Position numbers and translations under genes: made by a program. A DNA stretch of 64,000 nt from Phycicoccus sonneratiae. Its GTDB lineage: Bacteria > Actinomycetota > Actinomycetes > Actinomycetales > Dermatophilaceae. The DNA lies in NCBI RefSeq assembly GCF_016887965.1, contig NZ_JAFDVD010000008.1, forward strand, positions 62,001 to 126,000, given 5' to 3'. This document shows positions 5,800-34,135 of the stretch, one piece after another. How positions within the stretch are numbered: the first letter of the stretch is position 1; every line of letters starts with the position of its first letter. The notes below the pieces were generated by a model. It did not search any database, was not told the DNA's origin, and saw only the letters and a program-made list of their open reading frames with translations.

Positions 5800-5812
5800 G
5801 TTGGACCGTGGC

Positions 5813-10767: not shown

Positions 10768-10837
10768 TGTCGGGGGCGCGGGCCCCTCCGGTCACGTCCG
10801 GGCGGGGTGAGGGTGCTCACCGGATGGGCGGCGGAGG

Positions 10838-14226: not shown

Positions 14227-14267
14227 CGCGCGGCTCGTGCGTCCGCCGCGGGCGCGGTTGTCGGTCT

Positions 14268-14310: not shown

Positions 14311-14411
14311 CGTCGCGGGTGCACGCCGCCGGCGTCCGAAGAATCCGGGGTGATGGCACCGGTTTCTCCGGTCGGTGGCGGCCCCGGCCGGTCGCACTCG
14401 GCCTGACGGCG

Positions 14412-15308: not shown

Positions 15309-15889
15309 GATGTCCTCTCCACCGCGAACATGAGCCACACGCCCTCTTGCCACTTCAGGCCGATGTTCCTGGGCAGCGTCTTCTCAGGGTCAGTGCGGGT
15401 GACAGCCCCGGACTCGTCGAGGATGCGCGTCTGGTTCTGACGCAGGGTCCCCGTGAGGTAGATCTGGCCCTCCGGTGCCCCGGAAATGGCCTGGATGTCA
15501 AGCAGTGTGACCGGCGCCTTGTCGTACCGCTGCTTGTTGTCGACTAACCACTTGGCCTGCGTCTCGACGGTCGCGCAGAACTTACAGTCCTTGGCGCTGA
15601 ACTTTGCGACTAGTCCTGCCTCCGGCTTCGTCCATGCCACGTTGAACTGCTCCATGTAGAACTTCACGAAAGCTTCGGCGCCGGCGTCGGTCTGCTCACG
15701 CGCAGCGGCGGGGATCTGCGGACCCGACTCCGTGACCGACGGTGACGGCGACGGACTGGGCGTCGGGCTGGCCGACGAGCTCGACGCCGACGGCGTGGAC
15801 GTGACGACCGGGTCGTCGGCGGAGTCGCACCCCGCCAGCACCCCGGCGGCGAGCATCGCCACCACCGCCCACCGCACCGTGCCCGCCAC
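15305..15889 (-). CDS. DUF6318-type lipoprotein
   Basis: 194 residues from GTG 15889 with GAGAGG as ribosome site. The N-terminus is a lipoprotein signal: RW, hydrophobic AVVAMLAAGVLAGC, with the lipidated Cys in LAGC. A Ser/Pro/Thr-rich linker (SASSSSASPTPSPSPSPSV) follows and then a compact domain of about 130 residues (AFVKFYMEQFNVAWTKPE, CKFCATVETQAKWL). The FxFYxxxxNxAWxxP pattern and the KDCKFC motif are those of the small actinobacterial lipoprotein family DUF6318. It is anchored on the outer face of the membrane. It is coupled by GTGA to the following secreted protein. Function unknown. Confidence 0.82.
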   Translation of the reverse strand: MAGTVRWAVVAMLAAGVLAGCDSADDPVVTSTPSASSSSASPTPSPSPSPSVTESGPQIPAAAREQTDAGAEAFVKFYMEQFNVAWTKPEAGLVAKFSAKDCKFCATVETQAKWLVDNKQRYDKAPVTLLDIQAISGAPEGQIYLTGTLRQNQTRILDESGAVTRTDPEKTLPRNIGLKWQEGVWLMFAVERTS

Positions 15890-16035
15890 GCGTCCCTCTC
15901 CCGGGCCACCCCCTCGGCGACCCTGCACGCCCCAAGGTAGCCAAAACCCCCACATCCGCCACCGGGGTTGTCCACAGGCGGCCACCGACGCCCGCCGGTG
16001 ACACCGACCGGCCACGCACCACCGCGTCCGGCGCG

Positions 16036-16413
16036 TCAGGCGCGCCCGGCCACCACCGCGTCGGCGTGACGGGCCACCCATCCCATGAGCGGCACGAGGT
16101 GGGCACCCAGCTCCTCCCCGAGCGGCGTGAGGCTGTACTCGACGCGCGGCGGGATGACCGGGAAGGCCTCGCGGTGCACGAACCCGTCGGCCTCGAGCGT
16201 CCGCAGCGTCTGCGCGAGCATCTTCTCGCTGACCCCCTCCGCCCGCCGCCGCAGCTCGCTCCACCGCTGCGGCCCGTCGGTGAGCGACAGGAGGACGAGC
16301 AAGCCCCACTTGCTCGTCACGTGGTCGATGACCACCCGACTCGGGCAGGCCGCCGGGAAGATCCCGTCGGGAAACGCCTGCCGCACCGCGCTGACCTCGT
16401 CACTCACCGTCAC
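16036..16413 (-). CDS. HxlR/DUF24-family redox-type repressor, QorR-like
   Basis: 125 residues from GTG 16413. Winged-helix HxlR signature: VVIDHVTSKWGLLVLLSLTDGPQRWSELRRRAEGVSEKMLAQTLRTLEADGFVHR. A single Cys sits at residue 23, directly before the first helix (FPAACPSRVV), the position of the redox-sensing Cys in YodB, CatR and QorR. The gene is divergent from a quinone-oxidoreductase-like gene. In Corynebacterium glutamicum QorR represses the divergent qor2 gene and is inactivated by oxidants, so the same logic is likely here. Its promoter region contains an imperfect palindrome immediately upstream of the start. Confidence 0.9.
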   Translation of the reverse strand: MTVSDEVSAVRQAFPDGIFPAACPSRVVIDHVTSKWGLLVLLSLTDGPQRWSELRRRAEGVSEKMLAQTLRTLEADGFVHREAFPVIPPRVEYSLTPLGEELGAHLVPLMGWVARHADAVVAGRA

Positions 16414-16416
16414 GTC

Positions 16417-16441
16417 AGTACCTTACCCAAAAGTGCGTACT
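16417..16441. promoter_or_regulatory. Candidate operator for the HxlR-type repressor
   Basis: AGTAC at 16417-16421 is mirrored by GTACT at 16437-16441, with partly symmetric TTACCC/AAAGTGC between them. The site starts four bases upstream of the HxlR regulator start and about 85 bp upstream of the divergent reductase, so one bound dimer could control both. The TAC/GTA half-site layout with this spacing is typical of DUF24-family operators. The assignment is inference from position and symmetry. Confidence 0.55.
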
Positions 16442-16525
16442 ACCTCTCGGGAAGCACCACCCCGCCTGCGCGGTTGCCCCGCACGGACACACCGACCACC
16501 CCGGACACCCCCGAGAGGAACCACC

Positions 16526-17401
16526 ATGACCATCGTCGTCACCGGAGCCACCGGCCACCTCGGCCACCTCGTCGTCGAGGCGCTGCTGCGTCGCGGCGCC
16601 GACCCCGCCCAGGTCGTCGCCACCGGTCGCGACCTCGCGAAGGTCGCCGACCTCGCAGCACGTGGCGTCCGCACCGTCGCCTCCGACTACACCGACCCCG
16701 AGTCGCTGCGCGCGGCGTTCGCCGGCGCCGACCGCGTGCTCCTGGTCTCCGGCAACGAGATCGGCCAGCGCCTTCCCCAGCACACCAACGCCGTCGAGGC
16801 CGCGAAGGACGCCGGCGTCGACCTCCTCGCGTACACGAGCATCCCGCAGGCCGACACCTCCGGCATGCAGCTGGCCGCCGAGCACCTGGCGACCGAGCAG
16901 GTCATCCGCGACTCCGGCCTGCCGTGGGTCTTCCTCCGCAACTCCTGGTACCTCGAGAACTACCTCCCGCAGCTGCCGACCTGGCTCGAGCACGGTGCGA
17001 TCCTCGGCGCCGCCGGGGACGGACGCGTCAGCGCCGCCACCCGCGCCGACTACGCCGACGCCGCCGCAGCCGTCCTCCTCGACCCCGCCACCACCGGCGG
17101 CACGGTCCACGAGCTGGGCGGCAGCAGCGCCTTCACGCTCGCCGAGCTGGCGGCCGCCGTCACGGAGGCCACCGGCACCGACGTCGCCTACCGCGACCTG
17201 TCCGAGGCCGACCTCACCGACGCCCTCGCCGACGCCGGCCTCCCGCGCCCGTACGCCGCCGTGCTCGCCGACTCCGACCGCGGCATCGCGCGCGGCGCGC
17301 TGGAGGTGACGAGCGGCGACCTCGAGCGCCTCATCGGCCGCCCCCCGACGACGATGGCGCACGCCCTCGCCGACGCCGTCGCGGCAACCCGCGCGGCCTG
17401 A
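16526..17401 (+). CDS. NAD(P)H-binding quinone oxidoreductase-like protein (QOR2 type, NmrA fold)
   Basis: 291 residues from ATG 16526 with a CCGAGAGGA ribosome site. Rossmann motif GATGHLG at residues 7-13, followed by ATGRDLAKVADL, VASDYTD and LLVSGNE, which place it among the atypical short-chain dehydrogenases of the NmrA/QorB type. These proteins bind NADPH, and QOR2 members reduce quinones. LLAYTSIPQADTS and VFLRNSWYLENY resemble E. coli QorB (LLYTSLLHADTS, LRNGWYSENY). It is divergent from the Cys-containing HxlR repressor and followed 25 bp later by a paralogous gene, suggesting an operon for quinone or electrophile stress. Confidence 0.88.
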   Translation: MTIVVTGATGHLGHLVVEALLRRGADPAQVVATGRDLAKVADLAARGVRTVASDYTDPESLRAAFAGADRVLLVSGNEIGQRLPQHTNAVEAAKDAGVDLLAYTSIPQADTSGMQLAAEHLATEQVIRDSGLPWVFLRNSWYLENYLPQLPTWLEHGAILGAAGDGRVSAATRADYADAAAAVLLDPATTGGTVHELGGSSAFTLAELAAAVTEATGTDVAYRDLSEADLTDALADAGLPRPYAAVLADSDRGIARGALEVTSGDLERLIGRPPTTMAHALADAVAATRAA

Positions 17402-17426
17402 CCCGACCGAGGAGGAGGATGGCCCG

Positions 17427-18275
17427 ATGACCACGAGCACCCCCCGCATCGCCGTCACGGGAGCGACCGGCGCGGTCGGCGGGATGGTCGCCCGCGACCT
17501 CGCCGACCGCGGTGTGCCGCAACGACTCGTCGTGCGCGACCCGTCGCGCGCCCCGCAGCTGCCCGGCGCCGAGGTGGTCGCGGCGACCTACGGCGACGCG
17601 GACGCGATGCGCGCCGCGCTCGAGGGGGTCGACGTCCTCCTCCTCGTCTCGGCCTCGGAGTCCGCCGACAGGATGGCCGAGCACCGCTCGGCCGTCGAGG
17701 CGGCCTCGGCGGCCGGAGTCGGGCACGTCGTCTACACCTCGTTCCTCGGTGCCGCGGCCGACTGCACCTTCACCCTCGGCCGCGACCACTGGGCGACGGA
17801 GGGCCTCGTCCGCGACGCCGGGCTGTCGCACACCTTCCTGCGTGACAGCCTCTACCTCGACTTCCTGCCGCTCATGGTCGGCGAGGACGGCGTCGTGCGC
17901 GGGCCCGCCGGGGACGGCCGGCTCGGCGCCGTCGCGCGCGAGGACGTCGCCCGCACGGCCGTTGCCGCGCTCCTCGACCCCGACGCCCACCGGAACCTGA
18001 CCTACGACCTCACGGGCCCGGAAGCGTTGTCGTTCACCGAGATCGCGGCCACGATCGCCGAGATCACCGGACGACCCGCCACCTTCCACGACGAGACGGT
18101 CGAGGAGGCGTACGCGTCCCGCGCGGGCTACGGCGCTCCACCGTGGCAGCTCGACGCCTGGGTGTCGACGTACACGGCGGTGCGCGCCGGGGAACTCGAC
18201 GTCGTCACCGGCGACGTCGAGCGGGTCACCGGCCGCGCACCGATCTCGTTGCGCGAGCTGCTCGCCCGCACCTGA
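17427..18275 (+). CDS. NmrA-family NAD(P)-binding protein
   Basis: 282 residues. Glycine-rich Rossmann motif GATGAVGG at about residues 12-19, then VVRDPSRAPQL (NADP-preferring Arg), VAATYGD and LLLVSASES. HVVYTSFLGAAADCTF and HTFLRDSLYLDFLP occupy the catalytic-domain positions. It is paralogous to the gene just upstream (same domain order, about 280-290 residues) and separated from it by 25 bp carrying a GAGGAGGA ribosome site. It is therefore probably a co-regulated second reductase or sensor with a different substrate. The active-site YxxxK of classical SDRs is absent, as usual in NmrA-like proteins. Confidence 0.88.
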   Translation: MTTSTPRIAVTGATGAVGGMVARDLADRGVPQRLVVRDPSRAPQLPGAEVVAATYGDADAMRAALEGVDVLLLVSASESADRMAEHRSAVEAASAAGVGHVVYTSFLGAAADCTFTLGRDHWATEGLVRDAGLSHTFLRDSLYLDFLPLMVGEDGVVRGPAGDGRLGAVAREDVARTAVAALLDPDAHRNLTYDLTGPEALSFTEIAATIAEITGRPATFHDETVEEAYASRAGYGAPPWQLDAWVSTYTAVRAGELDVVTGDVERVTGRAPISLRELLART

Positions 18276-20978: not shown

Positions 20979-22715
20979 GTGCAGGTGCCGTGGGCCGTGG
21001 TGCCGGAGAACGTCCGGACGCTGCGCCACTACCCCCGCCGCCAGCTGCCCGGCGACCTGCTCGCCGGCCTGCTCGTCGCGGCCCTCGCAGTGCCCCAGGC
21101 CCTCGGGTACGCCGCGGTCGCGGGAGTGCCCGTGCAGGTCGGTCTGTACACGCTGCCGCCGGCCCTGCTCGCCTACGCGCTCTTCGGCACCTCGCGGGTG
21201 CTGTTCGTCGGACCGGTCTCGACGGTGTCGGTGCTGTCGGGGTCCATCGTGCGGGCCCTGGCCGGTGGCGACCCCGAGCTCGCCGTGCGGCTCACCTCGG
21301 CGCTGGCCCTCACCGCCGGGGTCGTGCTCGTCGTCGCAGGCCTGCTGCGGCTCGGCTGGGTGGCGCAGTTCCTCAGCCAGCCGATCGTCACCGGGTTCGT
21401 CGCGGGGCTCGTCGTGCTCATCGTCGTCGGGGAGCTGCCGGCCCTGGCCGGGTTGCCATCGCCCGCCGGCAACCTCGCCGAGCGCCTGCTCACCCTGGTC
21501 GGCGGGGTGGCGGACTTCGACGGGTTGACGCTGTCGGTCGGCGCGGGGGCGCTCGTCGTGCTCTTCGGGGGGCAGCGGCTGCTCCCCCGCGTGCCGTGGT
21601 CGCTCGTCGTGCTCGTCGCCGGCATCGTCCTGTCGTCCCGCGCCTCGCTCGCCGAGCACAGCGTCCTCGTCGTGGGCGCGGTGCCGGGCGGGCTGCCCGT
21701 GCCGTCGCTGCCGCTCGTCGACGTGCGGCTGCTCGGCGGGGTCGTCACCGGGGCGCTGGCCATCGCAGCGGTCGGCATCGCCGAGGGGCTGGCCGCGGTG
21801 CGCACCTTCTCGGCCGAGGAGGTCGATGCGCGCACCGACGACCGCGAGCTCGTCGCCCACGGCGCCGCCGACCTCGCCTCCGGGCTGTTCGGGGGGATGG
21901 GCGTCGGCGGGTCGCTGTCGAAGACGGCCGCCAACGCGAGCGCCGGCGCGCACACGCAGCTGAGCGGCATCACCTCGGCCGTCGTGACCCTCGCCGTGCT
22001 CGTCGCGGCCACCGGGGCGCTGGCCGAGCTGCCGCGCACCGTCCTGTCGGCGATCGTCGTCCACGCGGTGTGGGGCCTGGTGCGCCCGCGGGAGTTCACC
22101 CGGTACGCGCGGCTGCGGCGCAACGACGCGGTCGCGGCGCTCGTGGCGCTCGGCGGGGTGCTGGCCCTCGGGCCGCTGGGCGGGCTGCTCCTCGCGGTGG
22201 CCCAGTCGGTGCTCGGGCTCGTCTACCGGTCGGTGCAGGTCGACGTCGACGAGATGGGCCGGGTCGCGACGGAGAAGGCGGCGTGGGGGTCGCTGAGGTC
22301 GGACCCGACCCGGCGCACGTACCGCGGCGTCCTCGTCCTCCGGCCGAGCGGCCCGTTGTTCTGGGCCAACGCCTCGACCGTGCTCGCCCAGGTCGAACGG
22401 GTCGCCCTGGCCCGGGCCGCGGAGGGTGGGCTGCGCGCCGTCGTGCTCGACCTCGAGGCGACGAACCAGATGGACTCGACGACGAGCGACCGGCTCACCC
22501 ACCTCGTCCACGTGCTGCGGCGGCACGGCGTCGACGTCCACCTCGTGCGGGTGTTCGGTGAGGTCCGCCGGGTGCTCCGGCGGGCCGGCCTGCTCGACGA
22601 CCTCGGGCCGGGGCACCTGTGGCACTCGATCGCCGCCGGGGTGAAGGCGGCGCGCGCGGCGCCGGAGGGCGAGGACGAGCCCGAGGACGGTGCCGACCCC
22701 GACGACGGGAGCTAG
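20979..22715 (+). CDS. SulP-family anion transporter with STAS domain
   Basis: 578 residues from GTG 20979; an in-frame ATG at 20886 would add 31 Arg-rich residues that do not fit the family N-terminus. About ten to twelve hydrophobic helices are present. The SulP signature VAALAVPQALGYAAVAGVP lies in helix 1, with GVGGSLSKTAANASAGAHTQLSG in the core domain (close to the family GGMPGTGAxSRTAVN motif). A cytoplasmic STAS domain forms the last ~110 residues (YRGVLVLRPSGPLFWANAS, VLDLEATNQMDSTT). Such proteins carry sulfate, bicarbonate or dicarboxylates. No carbonic anhydrase or sulfate gene is adjacent, so the substrate is open. Confidence 0.92.
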   Translation: MQVPWAVVPENVRTLRHYPRRQLPGDLLAGLLVAALAVPQALGYAAVAGVPVQVGLYTLPPALLAYALFGTSRVLFVGPVSTVSVLSGSIVRALAGGDPELAVRLTSALALTAGVVLVVAGLLRLGWVAQFLSQPIVTGFVAGLVVLIVVGELPALAGLPSPAGNLAERLLTLVGGVADFDGLTLSVGAGALVVLFGGQRLLPRVPWSLVVLVAGIVLSSRASLAEHSVLVVGAVPGGLPVPSLPLVDVRLLGGVVTGALAIAAVGIAEGLAAVRTFSAEEVDARTDDRELVAHGAADLASGLFGGMGVGGSLSKTAANASAGAHTQLSGITSAVVTLAVLVAATGALAELPRTVLSAIVVHAVWGLVRPREFTRYARLRRNDAVAALVALGGVLALGPLGGLLLAVAQSVLGLVYRSVQVDVDEMGRVATEKAAWGSLRSDPTRRTYRGVLVLRPSGPLFWANASTVLAQVERVALARAAEGGLRAVVLDLEATNQMDSTTSDRLTHLVHVLRRHGVDVHLVRVFGEVRRVLRRAGLLDDLGPGHLWHSIAAGVKAARAAPEGEDEPEDGADPDDGS

Positions 22716-22730
22716 CCGGGGGACGAGTCG

Positions 22731-23675
22731 TCAGCCCGGCGGAGCCGTCGTCGAGGAGGTTCGGGTGAGCTCCGCGGTCGGTGACGGCTGCGGTGCGACG
22801 TGCTGCCCCCACTGCGCGCCGGCGGTGCGCGCCCAGTCCTCCCAGGCGCCGGACGACACCGACAGCCATGCCGAGGCCAGCAGGACGAGGGCGGCCGCCC
22901 GACGGCGCAGGCGGCGGTGCCGACGCCTGCGTTCGGCCGCGCGACGGGCATCACCGAGCTGGCGGCGGGTGGGTGGCGGAGCGGTGGTCACGGGCCGTCG
23001 AGCGGTGGTCACGGGCCGTCGAGTCGGCGGTCGTCGGTGGGGGGCAGATCGGCTCGCGCCGAGGTCGCGACCGATGGCGGCGAGCAGAAGGGGGTCGGTC
23101 GTCGTCGACGGGAACTCTGTCCGCACCTGCACCTTGAGCGCCTGGAGCTCGGCCTCCGGGGCGCGGCGCAGGCCGGTGACCCACCGGGCGAGGTGGGGCA
23201 GCGGGACGATCCACACACCGCGGACGACGCGCGGTTCACCGAAGCGCCGCGCGTCGCGGCCGACCAGGCAGATGGCTTGGGTCACGCCGTGCCGCAGGCG
23301 ACCTGCGACGACCCCGGCCATCCACTCCACCCGGGCGAGCTCGCGGGTGCGAGGGCGGTGCGTGCGCTCACCGGTCGCCGACCAGTAGTGCTGGAAGAGG
23401 GTTCCGCCGTACTCGGTGACCTGCCCGCTCCAGTTCTTGGCGTCGACGAGGAGGATGCCGGTCGGGCCGACGACGAGGTGGTCGAGGTTCGACTCGGTGA
23501 CCCCTGGCATGAGCAGTCGGTCGTGGAGGACGAGGTAGTCCGCCGGCAGCGTCGCGAGGGCGGCCGCCACCCGGCGTTCGCCCTCGGCACCGGCCGCCCA
23601 CGCGGCCGCGGAGTCGTCACCGCGGGCCGCGAGCAGCTGCGCCATCCGCTCGGCGCTGCCCCCCGACTCCCCCAT
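22731..23675 (-). CDS. NERD-domain protein with C-terminal membrane anchor
   Basis: 314 residues from ATG 23675. The nuclease-related domain occupies about residues 25-150: GAEGERRVAAALATLPADYLVLHDRLL, SNLDHLVVGPTGILLVDAKNWSG, with the D...E/D-x-K-type core residues (LDHLVVGP and VDAKNW). A long Arg/Pro linker (THRRPPTRRPVTTARRPVTT) contains a short repeat. A single hydrophobic helix (AAALVLLASAWLSVSSG) lies near the C-terminus, followed by an Ala/Thr tail. NERD proteins are suspected nucleases or nucleic-acid-binding proteins. It is convergent with the SulP gene, 15 bp apart, and divergent from the giant-protein cassette. Confidence 0.9.
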   Translation of the reverse strand: MGESGGSAERMAQLLAARGDDSAAAWAAGAEGERRVAAALATLPADYLVLHDRLLMPGVTESNLDHLVVGPTGILLVDAKNWSGQVTEYGGTLFQHYWSATGERTHRPRTRELARVEWMAGVVAGRLRHGVTQAICLVGRDARRFGEPRVVRGVWIVPLPHLARWVTGLRRAPEAELQALKVQVRTEFPSTTTDPLLLAAIGRDLGASRSAPHRRPPTRRPVTTARRPVTTAPPPTRRQLGDARRAAERRRRHRRLRRRAAALVLLASAWLSVSSGAWEDWARTAGAQWGQHVAPQPSPTAELTRTSSTTAPPG

Positions 23676-23782
23676 CCGTCCCTCCCGTCGCGTCCACCCC
23701 GCGGCGTGACCGTAGCCGGATGCCGTCCTGGTGTCCGGGGAACGAGGAAGTTCGGGACAGCGCGGGGCGAGGTGGGGTGTTC

Positions 23783-23827
23783 GAGTGCTCTCGGTTGAGT
23801 CACATGCTGAAGCAACCGAGAGCACTC
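23783..23827. repeat. Perfect 15-bp inverted repeat between divergent genes
   Basis: GAGTGCTCTCGGTTG (23783-23797) and CAACCGAGAGCACTC (23813-23827) are perfect complements around a 15-nt loop. A second palindrome, AATGGCCCG-GT-CGGGCCATT, follows at 23887-23906. Both lie in the 395-bp gap (23676-24070) between the NERD gene and the giant cassette, which are transcribed away from each other, so a terminator for a flanking gene is unlikely. The composition of 23720-23840 is less GC-rich than its surroundings. A small RNA, operator or mobile-element remnant are all possible. I see no protein-coding gene in the gap. Confidence 0.6.
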
Positions 23828-24015
23828 CACACACACCCCCTTCGCACCCGGCCGACCCCCTCGCGGGCACGCGCGCGGGCGCCGGCAATGGCCCGGTCGG
23901 GCCATTCCCGCCGACCGGAGCGCCGCAGTAGGTTCGGACGTCTCCACGCGCGGGCCGGGGCTCTATGGCCGGCGAATCACCCGGCGCCGTCCGGGCTCCT
24001 CGGGTACAGGTCGTC

Positions 24016-24066
24016 GGCTCCGCGATCCGGCCGGTGACCCCGATGCCGGATCGCGGACACGGAGCC
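24016..24066 (+). promoter_or_regulatory. Hairpin overlapping the ribosome site of the giant-protein cassette
   Basis: CCGCGATCCGGC (24020-24031) pairs perfectly with GCCGGATCGCGG (24045-24056). An outer arm GGCT/AGCC (24016-24019 with 24063-24066) reaches the GGAG ribosome site at 24061-24064, six nt before the ATG at 24071. Folded RNA would sit directly on the translation start, so translational control of the first giant gene is plausible. This is inferred from complementarity alone. Confidence 0.5.
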
Positions 24067-24070
24067 ACCG

Positions 24071-27000
24071 ATGAGCGATCGGAGCGTCCCGGGCCTCCCC
24101 GACGCCGGCAAGCTGCACCCCTACGACCACCGCGCCGGCGAGGACGACCTCGTCGTCGACGTCATCCGCCCCGGCGACCTCGTCGCCCTCACCGTCACCG
24201 TCCGCGGCGCCACGCTCGAGCCGCCGAAGAACCCCCGGGCCAAGGGCGCCCACTCCGTGCTCGTCGCCAGACCGGCCGCCACCCTCGTCGTCGACCTCCC
24301 CTTCCAGCACGGTCACGAGGAGGCGTCCTACGAGGCGGCCTCCGCGCCCCAGGTCGACCCGATGCACCCCGACGAGACGTCGACCGAGCCCGTCCCGCAG
24401 GTCGTCCTGCCGGCCCACGAGCCGGCGCAGTACCGGCCGGCCCGCGGCAGCCGCCTCGTCTTCGCGCTCCCCGAGGGCGGACGCATCGACTGGACGAGCG
24501 CCGGCATCCTCGGCGCCCTCCCCTGGCTCGAGGCCGTCCTGCACCCCCGTGGAGCCGCGCCGGGCAAGCGCCCCCCGCCCTACCAGCTGCCCTCCGGCAA
24601 GGTCTTCCTCGACCCGTTCCTCGAGGTCCCGCTGCTCAATGGCCTCTTCGCGGTCCTCAGGGGCGACGACGTCCTCATCACCCGCCGCGGCAGCGCCGGC
24701 ACCGTCGTCCCCGACGCCGGCACCGTGCGGGGCCTGGCCGCGCTCGCAGCCAACGAGCGGCTCGTCTCCGACTACGCCCGCACCCACTCCGTCCGCCTGG
24801 GGCGGGGGATCGACATCGCCGCGGTCGACGGCCGGCTCGTCGGCCTCGTCGGCCGCCGGGACCTCGGCACCGTCTTCCGACGGGGCACCTACAGCCGCCG
24901 GGCGACCGGCGACGAGACCGCCATCGAGGCGCCCTTCCGGCTGCAGGTCTCCCCGACGAGCGAGGGCCACTGGGTGCACGCCGCCGAGCCGGTGCCGGCC
25001 GAGGACGCCCCCGGCAACGTCGAGCTCTGGCACACCCGGCTCGACACCGGCCACCGCACGCCCGAGGACCTCCTGCGCCCGGGACGCCCGCAGGACAGGG
25101 AGTCCCGGGTCGTCCGCGCCGTCTGGGCCCGCGACCGCGACGACCACCCGACCTCGGTGTGGCGCGACCCGTTCGCCGACGACGCCGACACCAAGCCGCT
25201 CGGCCCCGACACCATCTCGAGCACGGTCACCCCGACCCGGCCGTTCCTCGGGTCGCTCGACCAGGCCGACCGCCACCGCCTCGTCCGCCAGACCGCGGAG
25301 GTCTGGCCGGGCGCGGGCCGCTCGCGCATCGACCCGGTCCCGGTCGGCGCGGACAAGCTGTGGCTCACCGCCCTCGGCGCGTGGCTCGACCTGCACGGCC
25401 ACTGGGACACCAAGCCCTACTCGGTCGAGGGCATCGCCTCGGTCCTCGCGTGGGACCACATCGCGACGGCCGGCCGCGACCAGTACGTGCGGGTCGTCTA
25501 CCCCGGCTACCTCTTCCCGCTCGGCCAGCCGACCGTGCGGGTCAAGCTGACGCAGCGCAGCATCCGGCCCCAGGACGACCCGCGCGCCGGCCTCGTCCAG
25601 CGCCAGTTCCTCGTCGTCATCGACCCCCACCGTGACCACACGCCGGTGTTCGGGTTCCCGTTCACGAGCTCGCGGCTCTCCCCCGGCGCCACGCCGGCGC
25701 TCGACCCGCCCGGCGACGACCCGGTCCCCGGTCTCACCTCCTCGCAGGCGTTCTGGCCGCGTGTCGGCGGCCAGACCTTCGTCTGGAAGGTCGACACCGT
25801 CGACCGCGACGGCCGCCCCGGCACCGTCCCCGTCCCGCTCGTCTGGGTCGCCGAGCACGTCAAGGCCTCCGCCGACCTCAAGGCCCTCGAGAAGGGCTAC
25901 CGCGAGGACTCGCGCCGCGTCATCGACCTCGGTGGTCAGCACGTCGCCTTCGCCCCGGCCGGTGAGGAGGGCGACTCGCGACTCGAGACCCGCTCCCTCC
26001 GGATGCTCGGCGCGGCCCGCCAGGGTGGTAGCACGCCCCGGATGTCGACCGCCGACGTCGTCCTGCCCGCGGCGCAGGCCGTCGCCGGCACGGGCGCCAC
26101 CCGCGTCACGTACTTCCCCGAGTACCGCGCCAAGGGGTTCACGCCGGGCAACGCCGGGCGGGTGTGGGCCTCGACGCTGCTGCCCGGGATGGACACCGCC
26201 GCGGAGTACGAGGACGACCTCGGCACCACCGGCGCGACGACCGCGCGCGACGTCCCCCAGGACCTGCCGCGCATCGGGTTCGGCGGGAACCCCGGGGACG
26301 TCGGGTCCGACCAGGCGGGCGGCTTCGTCCAGCCGAACCTCACCGTCGCCGGCCTCTCGCAGAGCCGCGGCCCCGTGGGCGACCTCGCGTCGGTGGCGAG
26401 CGGGTCGTTCGACCCTGCCGCCTTCCTCGGCGACGCCCTGCCGAAGCTCTTCGGGCTCGTCGAGCTGCTCGACCTGCTGCCCGACGACGGGCCGCTCGCC
26501 GAGGCACCGGCCCTGGTTACCGAGGCCCTCGACACGTTCTCGGCCATCGAGAGCGAGGTCCAGCGGGCCGTCGCCACGGCACAGGACGCCGCGAACCAGG
26601 CTGCGGCAGTGCGCGACCGAGTACAAGCGGCCGGCGGTGCGGCCCTCGCCGACGCGCAGGCGCTGCTCGACGACGCCGAGGACCTCGCGACCGCCTTCGC
26701 CGACCTCCTGGCCTTCGTCGGTGGGCTGCCCGCGGCCCTCGCCGGTCTCGGGTCCGGTGACGTCGACGCCGCCCTCGCGGCCCCGAACGGCCTGAAGGAC
26801 CGGCTGACCACCGCCTCAGGCGCGGCCCGCGCCCTCGTCCGCGCGCCGCTGCCGCTCTTCGCCCGCAACCGGCTCACCCAGGCCGCCGACGCCCTCGACC
26901 GCCTCGCCGCGTCGGCCGACCTGCTCGGCGACGTCCTCGCCGTGCTCCAGGGCATCGACCCCGAGCGCAAGGAGATCAGCTTCCGCTACGAGTGGGGTCC

Positions 27001-27985
27001 GAAGCTGTCGTCGTGGCCGAAGGGCAGCGCCCCGCTCGTCAAGCTCGAGGAGGACTCGCTCGTCATCGCCCTCGCCGGCACGCTGCGGGCCTCCGGGCCG
27101 CCGAGCGTCGAGGTGCTCGCCGAGCTGCGGAACTTCTCGCTCATCCTCTTCGCGTCCGAGCCGCTCGTGACGATCCCGTTCGAGCGGTTGGCCTTCCACG
27201 GCGGGACGTCGGGCAAGGCCGAGGTCGACGTCGTCATGGGCGACATCGTCTTCGGCGGCTTCCTGTCCTTCGTCGAGACCATCAAGGACCTCATCCCGCT
27301 CGACGGCTTCTCCGACCCGCCGAGCGTCGAGGTCACGCCGGCCGGGCTGACCGCGGGCTTCTCACTGACCCTCCCGAACCTCGCCGTCGGCGTCTTCAAC
27401 CTGTCGAACATGTCGCTCGGGGCCGACGTCAAGGTGCCGTTCCTCGGCGAGACGATCAGCTTCGGGTTCAACTTCTGCACCCGCGAGCGTCCGTTCGTGC
27501 TGTCCGTCGTCTTCCTCGGCGGGGGTGGATGGTTCCTCATCCGCCTCTCCCCCAAGGGTCTCGAGGTGCTCGAGCTCGGGCTGGAGGCCGGCGCCTACCT
27601 CGCCGTCGACTTCGGCGTGGCGTCCGGGTCGATCTCCGCGGCCATCGGCATCTACATCCGGCTCGAGGGCGAGAAGGGTTCTCTCACAGGCTACTTCCGG
27701 CTGCGGGGCGAGGTCGACGTGCTCGGTCTGATCTCCGCGTCGATCGAGCTCTACATGGAGCTCGTCTACAGCTTCGACACGGGGAAGATGATCGGCCGCG
27801 CGCGGATCACCGTCGAGGTCGAGGTCCTCTGCTTCTCGGCGAGCGTGAGCATCGAGGCCGAACGCCAGCTGGCCGGCTCCAACGGCGACCCGAGCCTAAG
27901 GGAGGTCGTCATGGAGGACGACGGCAGTGCGCCCGCCTGGGACGACTACCTGCTCGCCTTCGCCACCGAGGAGGTCCCGGCATGA
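24071..27985 (+). CDS. Giant uncharacterised protein A (1304 residues)
   Basis: 1304 residues with no signal peptide and no clear membrane helix, so probably cytosolic or exported by a non-classical route. Visible regions: a beta-rich N-terminus (VIRPGDLVALTVTVRG, LVVDLPFQHGHEE); a middle block with ETAIEAPFRLQVSP, VELWHTRLDTG, LWLTALGAWLDLHGHW and RDQYVRVVYPGYLFPLG; a helical probably coiled-coil segment at about 815-905 (IESEVQRAVATAQDAANQAA); and a strongly patterned beta-rich C-terminal domain at about 985-1280 (FVLSVVFLGGGGWFLIRLS, LTGYFRLRGEVDVLGLISAS). The last part resembles, from memory, long uncharacterised DUF6603-like domains; this is unverified. Its stop overlaps the start of giant protein B by ATGA. 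Function unknown. Confidence 0.85.
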   Translation: MSDRSVPGLPDAGKLHPYDHRAGEDDLVVDVIRPGDLVALTVTVRGATLEPPKNPRAKGAHSVLVARPAATLVVDLPFQHGHEEASYEAASAPQVDPMHPDETSTEPVPQVVLPAHEPAQYRPARGSRLVFALPEGGRIDWTSAGILGALPWLEAVLHPRGAAPGKRPPPYQLPSGKVFLDPFLEVPLLNGLFAVLRGDDVLITRRGSAGTVVPDAGTVRGLAALAANERLVSDYARTHSVRLGRGIDIAAVDGRLVGLVGRRDLGTVFRRGTYSRRATGDETAIEAPFRLQVSPTSEGHWVHAAEPVPAEDAPGNVELWHTRLDTGHRTPEDLLRPGRPQDRESRVVRAVWARDRDDHPTSVWRDPFADDADTKPLGPDTISSTVTPTRPFLGSLDQADRHRLVRQTAEVWPGAGRSRIDPVPVGADKLWLTALGAWLDLHGHWDTKPYSVEGIASVLAWDHIATAGRDQYVRVVYPGYLFPLGQPTVRVKLTQRSIRPQDDPRAGLVQRQFLVVIDPHRDHTPVFGFPFTSSRLSPGATPALDPPGDDPVPGLTSSQAFWPRVGGQTFVWKVDTVDRDGRPGTVPVPLVWVAEHVKASADLKALEKGYREDSRRVIDLGGQHVAFAPAGEEGDSRLETRSLRMLGAARQGGSTPRMSTADVVLPAAQAVAGTGATRVTYFPEYRAKGFTPGNAGRVWASTLLPGMDTAAEYEDDLGTTGATTARDVPQDLPRIGFGGNPGDVGSDQAGGFVQPNLTVAGLSQSRGPVGDLASVASGSFDPAAFLGDALPKLFGLVELLDLLPDDGPLAEAPALVTEALDTFSAIESEVQRAVATAQDAANQAAAVRDRVQAAGGAALADAQALLDDAEDLATAFADLLAFVGGLPAALAGLGSGDVDAALAAPNGLKDRLTTASGAARALVRAPLPLFARNRLTQAADALDRLAASADLLGDVLAVLQGIDPERKEISFRYEWGPKLSSWPKGSAPLVKLEEDSLVIALAGTLRASGPPSVEVLAELRNFSLILFASEPLVTIPFERLAFHGGTSGKAEVDVVMGDIVFGGFLSFVETIKDLIPLDGFSDPPSVEVTPAGLTAGFSLTLPNLAVGVFNLSNMSLGADVKVPFLGETISFGFNFCTRERPFVLSVVFLGGGGWFLIRLSPKGLEVLELGLEAGAYLAVDFGVASGSISAAIGIYIRLEGEKGSLTGYFRLRGEVDVLGLISASIELYMELVYSFDTGKMIGRARITVEVEVLCFSASVSIEAERQLAGSNGDPSLREVVMEDDGSAPAWDDYLLAFATEEVPA

Positions 27986-30900
27986 ACGCCGAGTGGTTCA
28001 CCGCCGTCGCGCTGCCGGTGTCCGTCGCCGACGACGCCCCAGCCCACGTTACCGTCTTCGTCGCACCCACCCTGCGACCCGACCACGCGGACGCCGTCCT
28101 CGGCGAGTTCGACCTGTTCCGCGACTGGGCCGGGGTCCTCGCGGCAGGCGTCGAGGTCACCCTCGTCGACCAGTCCGGCGAGTTCGCGGCTTCCGTCGAC
28201 CTCTCCGGCGTCGACCTCACGCTGTGGGAGAGGGCGTTCGGCGACGACGTCCCGGTGCGGGCCAACCACGTGCCCGAGTGGCAGGCTCGCGACTGGCGCA
28301 CCTTCGCCGCGAAGGACTGCGCCGACATCGCCAAGGCCGTCCACCTGTCGACGCTCGCCGCCGACCCCGTGACGCCGGTCCCCCCGAGCGCCCACCCGCT
28401 GCTCCAGGGCGTCGTGGGGATGGCCAACGAGGCGCACGCCATCACCTACGGCGGCCGCGGGACGCACGGCGACCGCGGCAGGCGCTGGCCGACCTACGAC
28501 GAGTCGAAGCTCACCGACTACCTCGACGAGCGGATGCGGCGTGGGCCACGCGGGGCGTGGACGACCCCGGCCGCCGGCTCGATGCCCACCGACCCCGCCG
28601 ACTCGGTCGGCACGGTCCTCGAGGCGCTGCACTACGCGCGCCGGTTCTACGAGCGCCCCGAGAGCCAGGCCGAGCACCAGGTGCTGGCCGACCCGCCCGC
28701 CAAGGTCGAGCCGCTGGAGCCGCCGACGCCCGAGTTCCACGAGCGCGTGGGCTCGGCCGGCGACCACCCGGCGTTCCTCCGCCGGCTCGGGCTGCTGCTG
28801 CCGGTGCGCTCGGATCCTGTGCGCCTCCGTCGCAGCCGGTGGCTCGCGGCGGTCGCCCGGACGCGTGGAGGCGAGGAAGCCTGCCGCTCACCCCGGCTCG
28901 CCGTGCGGGCCCTGCGCGACGGCTCCTTCGTGTCGCAGCCCAACCCCGACGACCCGGCCATCTGGTCCGACGGTGCGCTGGTCCTCGGCGACACCGACGT
29001 CTTCGACGTGGTCGACGTCGACCCGGACGGCTCCGCCATCAAGGCCGAGCGTTTCCTCACGACCATCCCGCGGCTGGCGCTCACCCAGCTGCAGGAGATG
29101 CCGGTGGATGCCGCGTCGCCGGCGCTGCGGGCCACCGGCTTCACGCTGACCCGGCGCCAGCAGGCCGGGCGCAGCCAGGACCAGCTCGATCGGCAGGAGG
29201 GCTACCAGTCCGCGCTCGAGGCTCCGACGCCGCCGCAGGACATGCCGCTGCTGCACACCCAGGACGTCACGCGTGGCATGCGGGTCGAGGTGTGGGACAG
29301 CGTCTCCCGGGTGTGGCACTCGTTGCACTCCCGACGCTCGACGCTCCTCGTGTCGGGCGAGGAGGTGTACCGCGACGACCCCGGGGAGGGGTTCATCCAG
29401 GGGACGAGCGCGACCGAGACTCGCGGCGTCGAGGGCGGGGCCGTGCACGTCCACGAGGCGATGTTCGGCTGGGAGGGCTGGAGCCTGTCGGTGCCCCGGC
29501 CCGGCAAGCGGGTCACGCCCGTGTACTCGGACGCGCCCGGCGGCGGCACCCACATCGAGGAGACGGCCGAGCCGACCTCCACCGACCCCACCGGGAAGGA
29601 GCCGCACCCCTTCGCCTTCACCCACGAGTACGCACCGGGCACCCTTCCCCGGCTGCGGTACGGCCGCGACTACGCCTTCCGCGCGTGGGGCGTCGACCTC
29701 GGCGGCAACGTGCGCCCGCACCACGTCGGCCCGCGGCCGCCGGCCCTCGTCGAGGTGGCCGACGCCGTGGCCCGCATGTCGCCGCTCTCCGACACCGCCC
29801 TGTCGCGCCGCCTCAAGGCCGCCGGGGGTGCCGACCTCCCGCGGCTGACCGCGACGCTGGCCACCGCGGTCGAGCCCGCCTCCGCCACAGGGCTGGCCGA
29901 CCTGCGGGCGCTGCTCCCGGAGGACCCCGAGGCCTCGGTCGTCGGGGAGGTCGTGGCCGGTGGCGCCACGCGCGCACCGGCGGCCGACGAGCTGCTCCTC
30001 GACGCCGCCTCCCCCACGCTGCTGCGGACCGTCGTGGCGGGCGCCGCGCTGGGACGTCCGGCGGCCGAGGCCGTCGCCGCGGCCGAGGCCGTCGCCGCGG
30101 CCGAGTCCGACGCAGCCCCGCTGCGGGACATCGGCATCCGCGGTGTGGCGACCCGTCGGCTGCTCGCCGAGCCTCCCCCGCCCCCGGCCGGGATGGTCTC
30201 CCGGACCGCCGCGGTGGGGGCCGCCTTCCGGCAGGCCGCGGCCGCCGGTGCGGTGGCGCGCAGCACCGTCAGCGACGACCTGCTCGTCAACCGCGACCTG
30301 TTCGCCGGCCACCTCGCGGACGTCCTCGGCGTCGGGGCGCCGGGGCTCACCGTCCCCGGTGTGCGCCTGGGCGTCTCGACCGCCACGGCGGCCCGCCCGT
30401 TCCTCCGGTGGGACCCCGTCCCGCCGCCGGTCGTCGTGCCCCTCGCGCAGTTCACCGAGGGCGAGTCGCTGCGGGTCGTCGTCGTGCGCTCCGGCGTCGG
30501 CCAGGACCCCGACACCCTCGAGGTGACCGTGCAGCCTCCGGATGAGTACGCCGCGTCCGTGGCCGGCACCGCCCCGCTGTACGCCGGGAGCGCGCGGCGG
30601 CACCTCGCCCCGCCGAAGACCAGCCAGGTGCAGGCCGAGCTGCACGGCGCCTTCGACGCCGGCATCGACGAGGGGACGCCCGCGGCCCGGCGCCGGATGC
30701 TCGCCTGGGCGCTGCGCGAGGGCGGCACCTGGTACGACCGCGAGGTCCCGCACCCCACCGACCCCACCGGAGCCCCGTCGACCCAGGAGGGCGTGCACCT
30801 GCTGCCCGAGCCGGTCGGCACCGACCACTACAACCCGCACGACCCGCAGCGCCCGCTCAAGGTGCTGCCCCCGGCCGCGCCCACGGTCCCGGACGAGCTG

Positions 30901-32946
30901 GTGCTCCAGCCCGGCGACGCCCCCGCACCGGGCCAGTACGTCGTGCACGCCACCGAGGACCTCGACCTGCCGTACCTGCCGGACCCGCTGGCCTCCGGTG
31001 TCTCGCTGGCCTTCACGCAGGCCGGGTCCGGGCGGCACGTGGTGTTCCCGTGGGGCGCCGAGCAGGTCACCGCCGGGTACCCCGGCGAGTGGCCCGAGCG
31101 CGAGCCGTTCCTGCTCACCCTGTCCGGCGCCCCGCAGCTCGGGGCCTCCATCGACGGGCGGGCGCTCGACGTGCAGCTGCCGGCCGGCGACGTGCAGACC
31201 TTCCGGCTCGCGAGCACCCTCCCGGCCGACCGCCTGCCGTGGATGGGCGTCTGGCGCAGCCTCGACGACGCACTGACCGGCAACCCGGACGTGCGCGAGG
31301 CGGCATCCGACGGCCTGCTCTGGGCGCTGACGCCCGGCGAGGACGTGCGGCTCGTGCACGCGGTGCCGCGTCCGGTCACCGCACCGCGCCCCACCGTCGT
31401 CGCGCCGTTCCGGGCGGCTGGGTCCGTGCTGGCCTCGCTCGTCGGCGGGGTCGAGGTGCACGGCCCGAGCACCGAGAAGCTGACGACCTCCCTCGCCTGG
31501 ACCGACCTCGTCGACGACGTCACACTCGACGCGCCGGTCGAACGTTCCTCCACCGCAGCGGGTTTCGAGGTCGCTGTCCGGCCGGAGGACCGCATCGTGC
31601 CGCTCTGGCTGGCCGACCAGACGCTCCCGTTCCCGGGGTTCGAGGGCGTCGTGCTGCGCAGCACCGTCCATCCGCTGCCGGACACCAGGCACCACGTCGT
31701 GCGGTACCGGTTCCGGGCCTCGACCCGGTTCCGCGAGTACTTCCCGGCGGCCCTCCTCGCCGGCGACCCGGCCGACCCGCTCGACGACGGTCAGAGCACG
31801 GTGAGCGCCGAGCTCGTCGTGTCCATGCCGTCGACGGTGCGCCCCGACCCGCCGGCCGTGCACTCGGTCCTGCCGCTGTTCCGGTGGGAGGAGACCGAGG
31901 AGCCGGAGCAGCCGTTCGGTCGTCGCCGGGTGCGGCGGCCGGGCGTGCGCATCTACCTCGAGCGGCCCTGGAACTCCAGCGGCGACGACGAGCTGCTCGC
32001 GGTGCTGCTGGCGGTCGGCGGTGACGACGAGAAGGCGCCGTACCCCCTCCCGGCCCCGAGCGACCCCGAGGCCGACCCGGCCGGCGGCTTCCCGTTCGTG
32101 AGCCAGTGGGGGGCGGACCCGATCTGGACGGCGCCCGGGGTGCCGAAGCGACCGGTGACGCTGGCCGAGCTCGACGACGCGCTGTCGGTGCTCGGGTGGG
32201 ACGACCGGGTCGAGGCCGCCCGACCGGTGCACGCGCCGGTCACCCTGCCGCTCCCGTTGGAGCCCAAGGGTTTTGCGAGCCCGCCGGCCACGGTGCCCGT
32301 GGTCGTCGCGGCGTACCGTCCGCAGTACTCGCACGACCGGCACCAGTGGTACGTCGACGTCGCGTTCGACGCGCGGGCGACGTTCTGGCCGTTCGTGCGA
32401 CTGGCCGTCTCGCGCTACCAGCCGGACTCGGTGGCCGGCGCCCACCTGTCGACGCCGGTGCGGCTCGACCAGGTGCAGCTGGCGCCGGAGCGCACGGTGT
32501 CGGTGGCCCGCACCGACTCCACGCACGCCCGGGTCGTCGTCTCCGGTCTGGCTGGGCACCGCGAGTCGGCGTCACGCCAGTACGCGGTCTCGGTGTCGCG
32601 CAACCGGACCCTCGTCGCTCGCCTGCAGCGGTACGTGCCGAAGGTCGGCGGCGACCTCGCGTGGTCGAGCGTCGACACGGTCGAGCTCGTCCCCCGTGGG
32701 TACGCGAGCCGGGTCGAGGACCTCGTGTGGGTCGGCGAGCTCGAGGCGGACGCGGTGATGGACGTCCGCACACCGGTCGGTGGCGTGAGCGCCGACGGGG
32801 CACCGGCCGGCTCGCGGTGGCGCGTCCGGGTCGAGGAGTGGGAGCGCTTCCCCGGCGACCCGCCGCCCCGCGCGGAGATGGCGCGCTTCGGCGAGGGACC
32901 GGTGTGGGAGAAGCGGCTCGTCTACGCCGACGACGTCTACCTCTGA
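27982..32946 (+). CDS. Giant uncharacterised protein B (1654 residues)
   Basis: 1654 residues from ATG 27982, which overlaps the stop of giant protein A. The frame stays open far upstream inside gene A, but the ATGA junction fixes the start. There is no signal peptide or transmembrane helix. The N-terminus (WFTAVALPVSVADDAPAHVTVFVAPTL) is beta-rich. A fibronectin-III-like signature LRYGRDYAFRAWGVDLGGN lies at about 556-575. An Ala/Glu-rich helical stretch (about 690-715) is encoded by a duplicated 18-bp unit, and many beta segments continue to the end. No catalytic motif is recognised. The multi-domain beta architecture suggests a structural or adhesion-like role, stoichiometrically coupled to protein A. 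This is inference. Confidence 0.85.
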   Translation: MNAEWFTAVALPVSVADDAPAHVTVFVAPTLRPDHADAVLGEFDLFRDWAGVLAAGVEVTLVDQSGEFAASVDLSGVDLTLWERAFGDDVPVRANHVPEWQARDWRTFAAKDCADIAKAVHLSTLAADPVTPVPPSAHPLLQGVVGMANEAHAITYGGRGTHGDRGRRWPTYDESKLTDYLDERMRRGPRGAWTTPAAGSMPTDPADSVGTVLEALHYARRFYERPESQAEHQVLADPPAKVEPLEPPTPEFHERVGSAGDHPAFLRRLGLLLPVRSDPVRLRRSRWLAAVARTRGGEEACRSPRLAVRALRDGSFVSQPNPDDPAIWSDGALVLGDTDVFDVVDVDPDGSAIKAERFLTTIPRLALTQLQEMPVDAASPALRATGFTLTRRQQAGRSQDQLDRQEGYQSALEAPTPPQDMPLLHTQDVTRGMRVEVWDSVSRVWHSLHSRRSTLLVSGEEVYRDDPGEGFIQGTSATETRGVEGGAVHVHEAMFGWEGWSLSVPRPGKRVTPVYSDAPGGGTHIEETAEPTSTDPTGKEPHPFAFTHEYAPGTLPRLRYGRDYAFRAWGVDLGGNVRPHHVGPRPPALVEVADAVARMSPLSDTALSRRLKAAGGADLPRLTATLATAVEPASATGLADLRALLPEDPEASVVGEVVAGGATRAPAADELLLDAASPTLLRTVVAGAALGRPAAEAVAAAEAVAAAESDAAPLRDIGIRGVATRRLLAEPPPPPAGMVSRTAAVGAAFRQAAAAGAVARSTVSDDLLVNRDLFAGHLADVLGVGAPGLTVPGVRLGVSTATAARPFLRWDPVPPPVVVPLAQFTEGESLRVVVVRSGVGQDPDTLEVTVQPPDEYAASVAGTAPLYAGSARRHLAPPKTSQVQAELHGAFDAGIDEGTPAARRRMLAWALREGGTWYDREVPHPTDPTGAPSTQEGVHLLPEPVGTDHYNPHDPQRPLKVLPPAAPTVPDELVLQPGDAPAPGQYVVHATEDLDLPYLPDPLASGVSLAFTQAGSGRHVVFPWGAEQVTAGYPGEWPEREPFLLTLSGAPQLGASIDGRALDVQLPAGDVQTFRLASTLPADRLPWMGVWRSLDDALTGNPDVREAASDGLLWALTPGEDVRLVHAVPRPVTAPRPTVVAPFRAAGSVLASLVGGVEVHGPSTEKLTTSLAWTDLVDDVTLDAPVERSSTAAGFEVAVRPEDRIVPLWLADQTLPFPGFEGVVLRSTVHPLPDTRHHVVRYRFRASTRFREYFPAALLAGDPADPLDDGQSTVSAELVVSMPSTVRPDPPAVHSVLPLFRWEETEEPEQPFGRRRVRRPGVRIYLERPWNSSGDDELLAVLLAVGGDDEKAPYPLPAPSDPEADPAGGFPFVSQWGADPIWTAPGVPKRPVTLAELDDALSVLGWDDRVEAARPVHAPVTLPLPLEPKGFASPPATVPVVVAAYRPQYSHDRHQWYVDVAFDARATFWPFVRLAVSRYQPDSVAGAHLSTPVRLDQVQLAPERTVSVARTDSTHARVVVSGLAGHRESASRQYAVSVSRNRTLVARLQRYVPKVGGDLAWSSVDTVELVPRGYASRVEDLVWVGELEADAVMDVRTPVGGVSADGAPAGSRWRVRVEEWERFPGDPPPRAEMARFGEGPVWEKRLVYADDVYL

Positions 32947-33151
32947 GGTCGTTCGCGCCGCTTCTGGTACAGGTGGTGGACGTCACCTCGGCCGAACGGC
33001 CAGTTGATCCGGATTCGGTCGTGCGCACCGGAGCCCGCGCGTAACTTCGGAATCGGATCGCGCCCCCCTGCAACCGTGGCGCCGTGCGCGATCACCGTGA
33101 CTGGCGTGCTGGGGAGTCGTAGGCGCGGTGGCGCCGTGAAAGAAGTCAGCC

Positions 33152-34135
33152 ATGGGCATCTCCATGTCCCCGTGCCGCCGTGCGACCCAGTCCCTCGGCG
33201 TGCTCGCTCTCGTCACCTCGCTCGGTCTCGCGACGGCCGGAAGCGCCGCCGCCCGACCCGTGCCCGACCCCTCCTCCTCCATCCGCGTCACCTCGGTGAC
33301 CGGCACCGTGGTGCGCAAGGCGGTGTCGACGCGGAACACCATCTACTTCGGGGCGGCCGGCGACGTCGACGCCCTCTCCGCCGTGTCCGGGGAGACCGTC
33401 AGCCGACACAGCTACGGCAACTTCCAGGGCTCGGTGCCCACCGGCCGGATGATCACGGTCAACGCCTCCGGCATCCCGTGGACCAGCGTCACCGACGCCG
33501 TGCCCGGAACCCCGATGTACACCAACATCGTGCGCTGGGCGCAGACCATCAAGGCCCGTCCGGACCGCATCCTCCTCTCGTTCGGGCACGAGCCCGAGGT
33601 CGTCAAGAAGGCCGGCCTCGGCACCGCGGCCGAGTACCGCGCCGCCTACCAGCACGTGGTGAGCATCTTCCGCCAGCAGGGCGTCACCAACGTCACGTGG
33701 GTCTTCCAGGCGACGGCCTGGGCCTTCCGGGTCGACCCGGCGTCCGCGGGCTCGGCGGCGACGTGGTACCCCGGCGACGCCTACGTCGACGTCGTCGGCG
33801 GAGACGCGTACAACTGGAACACCTGCGGGCTCCCGGGCCAGGGCAAGGACGTGCCGCTGAGCACGATCGCGGGCGGCATCCTCGCCTTCGCCAAGGCACA
33901 CGGCAAGAAGGCATCCCTGCCGGAGTTCGCCGCCACCTCCTCGCCCGGTCGGGCCGCCTGGCTCACCAACGGGTACGCGTGGCTGAAGTCGAACAGCTCG
34001 TACTTCGTCGCGTCGTACTACTTCAACCGTCCCCCGACCAACCCGGACAACGCCGACTGCGTGTGGTGGCTCAACACCCCCGCGGAGTACGCGTCGTACA
34101 CGGCGATCGTCAAGGACACCTGGACCGTGCAGTAG
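33152..34135 (+). CDS. Secreted glycoside hydrolase, GH26-like
   Basis: 327 residues with a clear signal peptide: MGISMSPCRRATQSL, hydrophobic GVLALVTSLGLATAGSAAA and cleavage near AAA-RP. The mature part has TIM-barrel character. ILLSFGHEPEV carries the probable acid/base Glu (HE motif at the end of strand 4 of clan GH-A), and KASLPEFAATS carries the probable nucleophile Glu. TWVFQATAWAF and YPGDAYVDVVGGDAYNW match GH26-type mannanases and related glucanases. It probably cleaves an extracellular beta-glycan. The 205-bp gap before it holds no other gene, and a strong terminator follows the stop. Confidence 0.82.
   Translation: MGISMSPCRRATQSLGVLALVTSLGLATAGSAAARPVPDPSSSIRVTSVTGTVVRKAVSTRNTIYFGAAGDVDALSAVSGETVSRHSYGNFQGSVPTGRMITVNASGIPWTSVTDAVPGTPMYTNIVRWAQTIKARPDRILLSFGHEPEVVKKAGLGTAAEYRAAYQHVVSIFRQQGVTNVTWVFQATAWAFRVDPASAGSAATWYPGDAYVDVVGGDAYNWNTCGLPGQGKDVPLSTIAGGILAFAKAHGKKASLPEFAATSSPGRAAWLTNGYAWLKSNSSYFVASYYFNRPPTNPDNADCVWWLNTPAEYASYTAIVKDTWTVQ

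Follow-up and report, generated by a model that had tools for sequence, protein, structure and literature searches.

The gene pair and its products

Within the window (the whole 64,000-nucleotide stretch of Phycicoccus sonneratiae DNA that was analysed) lie two adjoining genes, here called A and B, with the following features.

24071..27985, forward strand: gene A, 1304 aa, with a GGAG ribosome-binding-like site at 24061-24064
24917..25045, forward strand: part of a conserved region of A around residues 283-325 (T-x-IE-x-P...ELWH[TS]RL), from the alignment
26492..26950, forward strand: alanine-rich segment of A, about residues 808-960, presumably helical and possibly a coiled coil (by eye)
27014..27985, forward strand: most conserved, C-terminal region of A, about residues 982-1304, probably mostly beta (alignments and a low-confidence model)
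27969..27975, forward strand: AGGAGGT, the ribosome-binding site of B, within the end of A and 6 nt upstream of the ATG of B
27982..27985, forward strand: ATGA overlap of the B start (ATG, 27982-27984) and the A stop (TGA, 27983-27985)
27982..32946, forward strand: gene B, 1654 aa
29251..29736, forward strand: block of B at about residues 424-585 with ...LPRLRYGRDYAFRAWGVDLGGN at its end, conserved across 20 aligned members
31789..32547, forward strand: conserved C-terminal region of B, about residues 1270-1522 (alignments, and a genome search using most of the region)

The reading frames agree exactly with those given in a first-pass annotation of this DNA, including the ATGA overlap, which had been taken to imply equal translation of the two proteins; that implication does not hold, as B has a strong ribosome-binding site of its own. 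The open frame of A in the window extends just 11 codons 5' of its ATG. Both frames are also open in another genome of the genus (G008), where the copies are 84% (A) and 82% (B) identical to those of the window and the dN/dS is 0.228 over 1301 codons for A and 0.255 over 1645 codons for B. Remoter relatives align at 24-47% identity to A and 21-44% to B. The open frames in G008, the dN/dS values and these remote alignments indicate that A and B are real genes and not chance open reading frames, and both are under purifying selection. In Phycicoccus sp. HDW14 (G007:C1:931253-935165, locus L010 with the adjoining B) both genes are broken by frame changes, with a TGA inside one piece of A, the result of either sequencing error or decay.

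As had been claimed, there is no clear membrane helix in either protein, the highest 19-residue hydropathy being 1.75 for A and 1.56 for the longest ORF of B, and the window proteins have two cysteines each, a raw count. The alanine-rich middle of A differs greatly in length among the aligned relatives. The beta-rich C-terminal domain proposed for A is suggested by an AlphaFold model, made from a 3-row alignment, that is nearly all-beta at a pLDDT of 43. The fibronectin-III-like block proposed for B, which we take to be the one around residues 424-585, could not be substantiated, with no Pfam match to fn3 in the window B or in 22 B members, an unrelated protein as the best PDB match of the block profile (E 0.15), and an AlphaFold model (again from a 3-row alignment) at a pLDDT of 35. 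Neither model gave a confident fold and no interface was seen in them, which counts against the joint complex favoured below.

Neither A nor B of the window has a family match at E<=1 in Pfam, NCBIfam or PADLOC, and neither finds a PDB chain by phmmer; a profile of 23 A proteins found no PDB chain and a profile of 22 B proteins found a single one at E 0.34. This is in keeping with the earlier statements that the pair has no assigned role and, in the lack of any enzyme family match for A or B, no enzyme motif. Tc, Rhs and polymorphic toxin domains are absent from both window proteins (Pfam and NCBIfam, E<=1). Identity with a known anti-phage defence gene was rejected given that no PADLOC family matched at E<=1, and DUF6603, a possibly similar beta-rich family, is absent from the Pfam matches. 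PHROGs gave one weak match of A (residues 808-943) to a tail protein at E 0.073, and nothing for B at E<=1; beyond this tail match no clear homology to a tail, toxin or adhesin system was found. A literature search of the open PMC articles found nothing on the pair. Since no known family or system was found to include them, A and B are filed as a new protein family; the novelty is at the level of the protein family, and the mode of working may well be of a known kind.

Distribution, pairing and mobility

A was found in 3 of 12 genomes of the genus, 14 of 394 genomes of the class, 8 of 296 genomes of the phylum (by profile search) and, with another A as query, 23 of 200 genomes of the family to which G328 belongs, these samples partly overlapping (G000 is in three of them). 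That family is probably the Streptomycetaceae, since its loci group with those of named Streptomyces plasmids. A further 72,556 plasmid records yielded 10 with A, or 15 when the Cupriavidus protein was the query. The named hosts are Phycicoccus, Cupriavidus, Diaphorobacter, Rhizobium, Sinorhizobium, Ruegeria, Agrobacterium and Streptomyces. The similar giants mentioned earlier for other actinobacteria do exist, and occur in Alpha- and Betaproteobacteria too.

B follows A closely in this distribution. A 244-aa piece of B matches 14 of the 394 class genomes, 13 of them in common with A, and the unshared genomes are marginal (G341 with A only at E 2e-4, G367 with B only at E 6e-4); the stretch from G341 (L051) holds neither A nor B by profile. 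B is present in the very same 10 plasmid records as A. When 59 stretches were examined A was present in 58, with B following on that strand in 56 of the 58, and the two without B (L078 and L124) are both remote matches to A. The matched part of B starts inside the 4-nt overlap in 10 of 56 loci, that of the window included, and in the remaining loci it mostly starts a few tens of bases from the stop of A. Distances between the end parts of A correlate with those between the end parts of B (r 0.81 over 48 loci, with 0 of 1000 permutations as high; 10 loci that were broken, cut, remote or lacking B had been left out), a value that is also obtainable from co-inheritance alone. The A-B pair is obligate as far as sampled, A alone being essentially absent. 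A two-component complex had been suggested for the pair: the two-component unit is strongly supported by co-occurrence and fixed order, and the physical complex is what we infer.

A conserved third partner had been put forward as something to look for, and the answer differs with the scope of the survey. Among the first 27 loci no third gene or secretion gene was found in common. The 40 most shared ORFs printed for these loci include 39 that overlap A or B (by eye), being antisense or out-of-frame shadows, and the one left over (L055 23917-24852) is shared by 3 loci. Within seven streptomycete-type loci (L047, L049, L113-L116, L122) there is a third gene behind B encoding about 300-410 aa, whose products are homologous in all 21 pairwise BLAST comparisons (E below 2e-8); the L047 member has no Pfam match and, by eye, the look of Ig-type repeats.

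The evolutionary history of A was followed in a tree of its C-terminal part (56 rows, with L053 and L113 excluded as broken) made by a quick method that leaves deep branches weak. The window copy and three actinobacterial copies are joined to copies from Cupriavidus, Diaphorobacter and Rhizobium with an SH-aLRT of 98. This grouping of the window clade with proteobacterial copies implies transfer between phyla. With the empty site in G005 described next, A-B is seen to be a co-inherited and mobile two-gene unit.

All three pair-carrying genomes of the genus have one and the same gene upstream of the pair and a common gene downstream of it, and a longer stretch is missing at the same site in genome G005.

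22664..32987, no strand: stretch missing at the same site in G005, holding A, B and a NERD-domain gene; its limits are those of BLAST alignments
22734..24068, reverse strand: NERD (nuclease-related) gene beside A, inside the missing stretch
33152..34135, forward strand: gene starting 205 bp behind B, for a secreted-looking protein that in part matches glycosyl hydrolase 26 (E 1.7e-6)

The flanks, at window positions 22663 and 32988, are 104 bp apart in G005. Next to A-B, neither G007 (133 bp there) nor G008 (1.9 kb) has a nucleotide match to the NERD gene and G009 has a short weak one, and the GH26-like gene has a counterpart at the G005 site, where A-B is missing. Both genes were considered as partners of the pair and neither looks linked, the NERD match being patchy and the GH26-like gene being present at the A-B-free site. 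Elsewhere in the window (16085-18272, forward strand) two adjoining NmrA-like genes are found, perhaps a tandem duplication.

It could be supposed that the pair is a phage-tail, contractile-injection or phage-derived module. The weak PHROGs tail match points in this direction, as does a viral contig (L057) in which some 2.7 kb separate A-B (8787-16584) from portal, capsid and terminase-like genes recognised by eye (775-6065, on the opposite strand to A-B). However, this is the sole viral contig found with the pair, four of five scans having given the same contig and one nothing, and response-regulator and lipoprotein-like genes lie between its phage genes and A, giving by eye the look of a prophage edge. 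A and B have no match among 50,697 phage records, and no gene besides A and B is widely common in the 27 loci. A phage or injection-system origin was rejected on the PHROGs search, the phage records and the neighbour survey, and is very improbable.

Export signals and accessory domains

Tat-like signals were called by a pattern script that looks for a twin-arginine motif and then a hydrophobic stretch near the N-terminus. The script finds them in 12 of the 58 A proteins and in none of the 56 B proteins (Fisher p 2.6e-4). As a control, the remaining ORFs of 250 aa or more in these loci gave 9 of 1301, although many of those ORFs are not genes. As the longest ORF often starts too early, the matched part of 20 A and 16 B proteins lying past residue 80, a rescan was made at the start of the family-matched part, which gave 12 A and 0 B again; a looser pattern adds one more (L123). 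All four A proteins longer than 3000 aa, which come from alphaproteobacteria, are among the 12; Ruegeria has an A of up to 3311 aa and a B of 1899 aa. The Pfam TAT_signal family is matched by 1 of 23 A proteins (E 0.0037); 5 of these 23 are called by the script. In Sinorhizobium meliloti LMB1, where A is Tat-like, a gene of the TatA/TatE family encoding 55 aa is found directly behind B (L034 25748-25915, forward strand).

The script finds no Tat-like N-terminus on A or B of the window. Across the 13 rows of the window clade no A has a Tat-like signal or a lectin part, which counts against a reading based on export. On the tree of A the Tat state changes at least four times, with the weakness of the deep branches noted above. 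The claim that the proteins have no signal peptide is thus right for the window copy and its clade and wrong for the family.

Some members carry additional domains. In five A proteins (L047, L107, L114-L116) there is an N-terminal domain whose joint profile matches the PLL lectins at E 4e-12, the structures found being the seven-bladed beta-propeller lectins of Photorhabdus (PDB 6rfz, 5c9l, 5mxe). The match needs the 5-row profile, as the L107 domain alone found nothing convincing in the PDB (E 0.94), and Pfam finds nothing on the A of L047 and L114. Unlike the PLL lectins themselves, the domain occurs here only as a fused accessory, and it is missing from the window A. For B, CW_binding_2 is present three times in L120 (E 2e-46), an Ig-like Big_3_5 domain in L111 (E 5e-13), and PG_binding_1 (E 2e-5) together with PLDc_2 (E 2e-9) in L048. 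PG_binding_1 is also matched in 2 of 22 other B proteins, and 2 members of that set of 22 match endolysin families; a search with two PG-binding segments for those two PG_binding_1 members found L048 alone. In total a wall-, surface- or hydrolase-type domain is present in 5 of 25 Pfam-scanned B proteins (22 + 3). Contrary to this surface trend one B has HHH_3, a DNA-binding-type motif, at E 1.2e-5, and there are weak DUF7092 and ACT_3 matches among the 22. The window B has no added domain.

These data bear on whether the pair works inside or outside the cell. A cytosolic structural or scaffold assembly, such as a shell, filament or storage body, would treat the Tat-bearing members as derived exported branches, and it is consistent with the lack of a detected signal in 46 of 58 A, in 56 of 56 B and in the window clade, as well as with the lack of a common secretion gene beside the pair in the first 27 loci. 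Yet Tat-like signals occur in scattered lineages of two phyla, and lectin-like or wall-binding fusions are found on signal-less members too (L047, L107, L114-L116, L120, L048, L111), where they would make little sense intracellularly; an assembly of this kind is rather unlikely.

Alternatively the pair may form an adhesin or surface layer that serves attachment and is non-toxic. The CW_binding_2 domains on the B of L120 and on one ORF close behind B, the Ig-like domain of L111 and the lectin-like domain of A would all suit such a function, but, sortase motifs aside, no anchor was recognised in most members, and the hydrolase-type fusion and neighbours count against it, so that a purely adhesive role seems doubtful.

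Neighbouring enzymes, known systems and a possible role

Genes behind B were chosen mechanically, as the best ORF starting within 110 bp of it, with no background control. Over 56 loci this gave 37 ORFs, some surely not genes, with none in 15 loci and 4 loci at contig ends. The 37 ORFs match 26 Pfam families, each in one ORF. Among the 25 families shown, those of surface type include CW_binding_2, glucosaminidase, patatin, trypsin, astacin, PG_binding_1, Big_3_5 and Exo_endo_phos; aconitase, response regulator, sigma-70 and HTH families are found as well, which counts against a surface reading. The patatin is behind B in Cupriavidus (L030), and the glucosaminidase (L104) and PG_binding_1 (L100) proteins directly behind B have by eye no evident signal peptide. 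On the other side of the pair, Amidase_2 is immediately upstream of A in L047.

Further neighbours were seen in passing. In L101 (14856-16100, forward strand) an ORF behind B has by eye a nuclease-like part and a peptidoglycan-binding-like C-terminus, with no Pfam match. Three alphaproteobacterial plasmid loci with a large A (and B), L076 (21619-28900), L077 (1-8908) and L078 (1-2905), are possible defence islands: their neighbours are Dpd (DpdE-H) genes, an N-6 methylase accompanied by a helicase and a nuclease, or an endonuclease together with an AAA ATPase.

The enzymes near some loci invite the idea of a device for antagonism or predation, in which a secreted carrier docks by lectin or wall binders and delivers interchangeable peptidoglycan hydrolases, phospholipases, nucleases and proteases, resembling the umbrella toxins without any sequence relationship. 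The peptidoglycan-binding and PLD domains of the L048 B, the glucosaminidase, peptidoglycan-binding, patatin and amidase neighbours of L104, L100, L030 and L047, and the lectin-like domain on A would fit, as would a Tat signal on a giant subunit, a feature described for UmbC (PMC11062931). Recognisable cargo is nevertheless limited to a small minority of loci, the window and most others having no such neighbour, and ten of the neighbour proteins were picked by eye, the mechanical set being without control. Such a device is a possibility to be entertained with some reserve.

Umbrella toxins (UmbA/UmbB/UmbC) are the nearest in design to A-B among the systems compared. UmbC is described as combining a TAT signal with ALF repeats, coiled coils and a toxin at the C-terminus, and UmbA as bearing lectin (PMC11062931; PMC13274773). 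The likenesses are a very large Tat-bearing subunit (12 of 58 A), an alanine-rich helical middle, the involvement of lectin, streptomycetes among the hosts and envelope-directed enzyme modules near some loci. Against this, A-B has only two giants, is also found in proteobacteria and, in the window copy, has no signal. UmbC has two extended coiled coils; in A one alanine-rich, presumably helical segment was seen by eye. Pfam at E<=0.1 listed four families for 23 A proteins and four for 22 B proteins, none of them ALF repeats, so the pair is not an umbrella toxin. Nor was a C-terminal toxin found on A, the most conserved region of which ends the protein, with an extension of at most 135 aa beyond the profile in whole A proteins and no toxin family in 23 A.

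Two other comparisons are informative. Tat hitchhiking is described for redox enzymes, namely hydrogenases and formate dehydrogenases (PMC10924467) and PaoABC (PMC4273604). Like those hitchhikers the pair has its signal on one partner in 12 loci (A yes, B no), the window pair not among them, and by analogy co-export of B may be supposed; unlike them, A and B match no redox enzyme family and are much larger. The lactic acid bacterium Apilactobacillus kunkeei is reported (PMC12863079) to have giant extracellular surface proteins, Giant1-5, of 3,000-8,000 aa, and these too are very large proteins encoded by adjoining genes, a likeness of description only.

The reading that is favoured here, with a probability of about 0.5, is that A and B are obligate partners in one large complex, encoded by a mobile two-gene unit and acting at the envelope or outside the cell. 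The two proteins would join in a single large complex; in many relatives A would cross the membrane folded, by way of Tat, and B, on which no signal was seen, would be carried along with the exported A. The N-terminus of A and the C-terminus of B would form the outward tips, on which different lineages may mount lectin, cell-wall-binding, Ig or hydrolase modules, and the enzymes adjoining some loci may be cargo or helpers, which the neighbours do no more than suggest. A complex at the envelope or outside, with A exported by Tat in many lineages and B riding along, is held with moderate confidence. The likeliest purpose would be binding, perhaps attack, of the envelope of neighbouring cells, and the targeting and attack of such cells is proposed with low confidence.

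A bolder form of the idea has the pair as a new, horizontally moving class of two-subunit giant export machine, in which A drags B folded through Tat (in Ruegeria proteins of about 3300 and 1899 residues) and the pair, its tips bearing exchangeable lectins, wall binders and hydrolases, docks on neighbours and attacks them; as a whole this is unlikely. The size limit usually cited for Tat is far below that of such complexes, and if the giant export machine were true it would mean that Tat handles complexes far above the usually cited sizes.

A 9 kb two-gene unit of no known family that is kept intact and is common to actinobacteria and proteobacteria presumably serves a function both costly and useful. 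With signals on A in scattered lineages and none on B, the question of what Tat can carry, and how large it may be, becomes directly testable. An envelope-directed system operating between microbes, so far unrecognised, is hinted at by the modules of lectin-like, wall-binding and hydrolase type.
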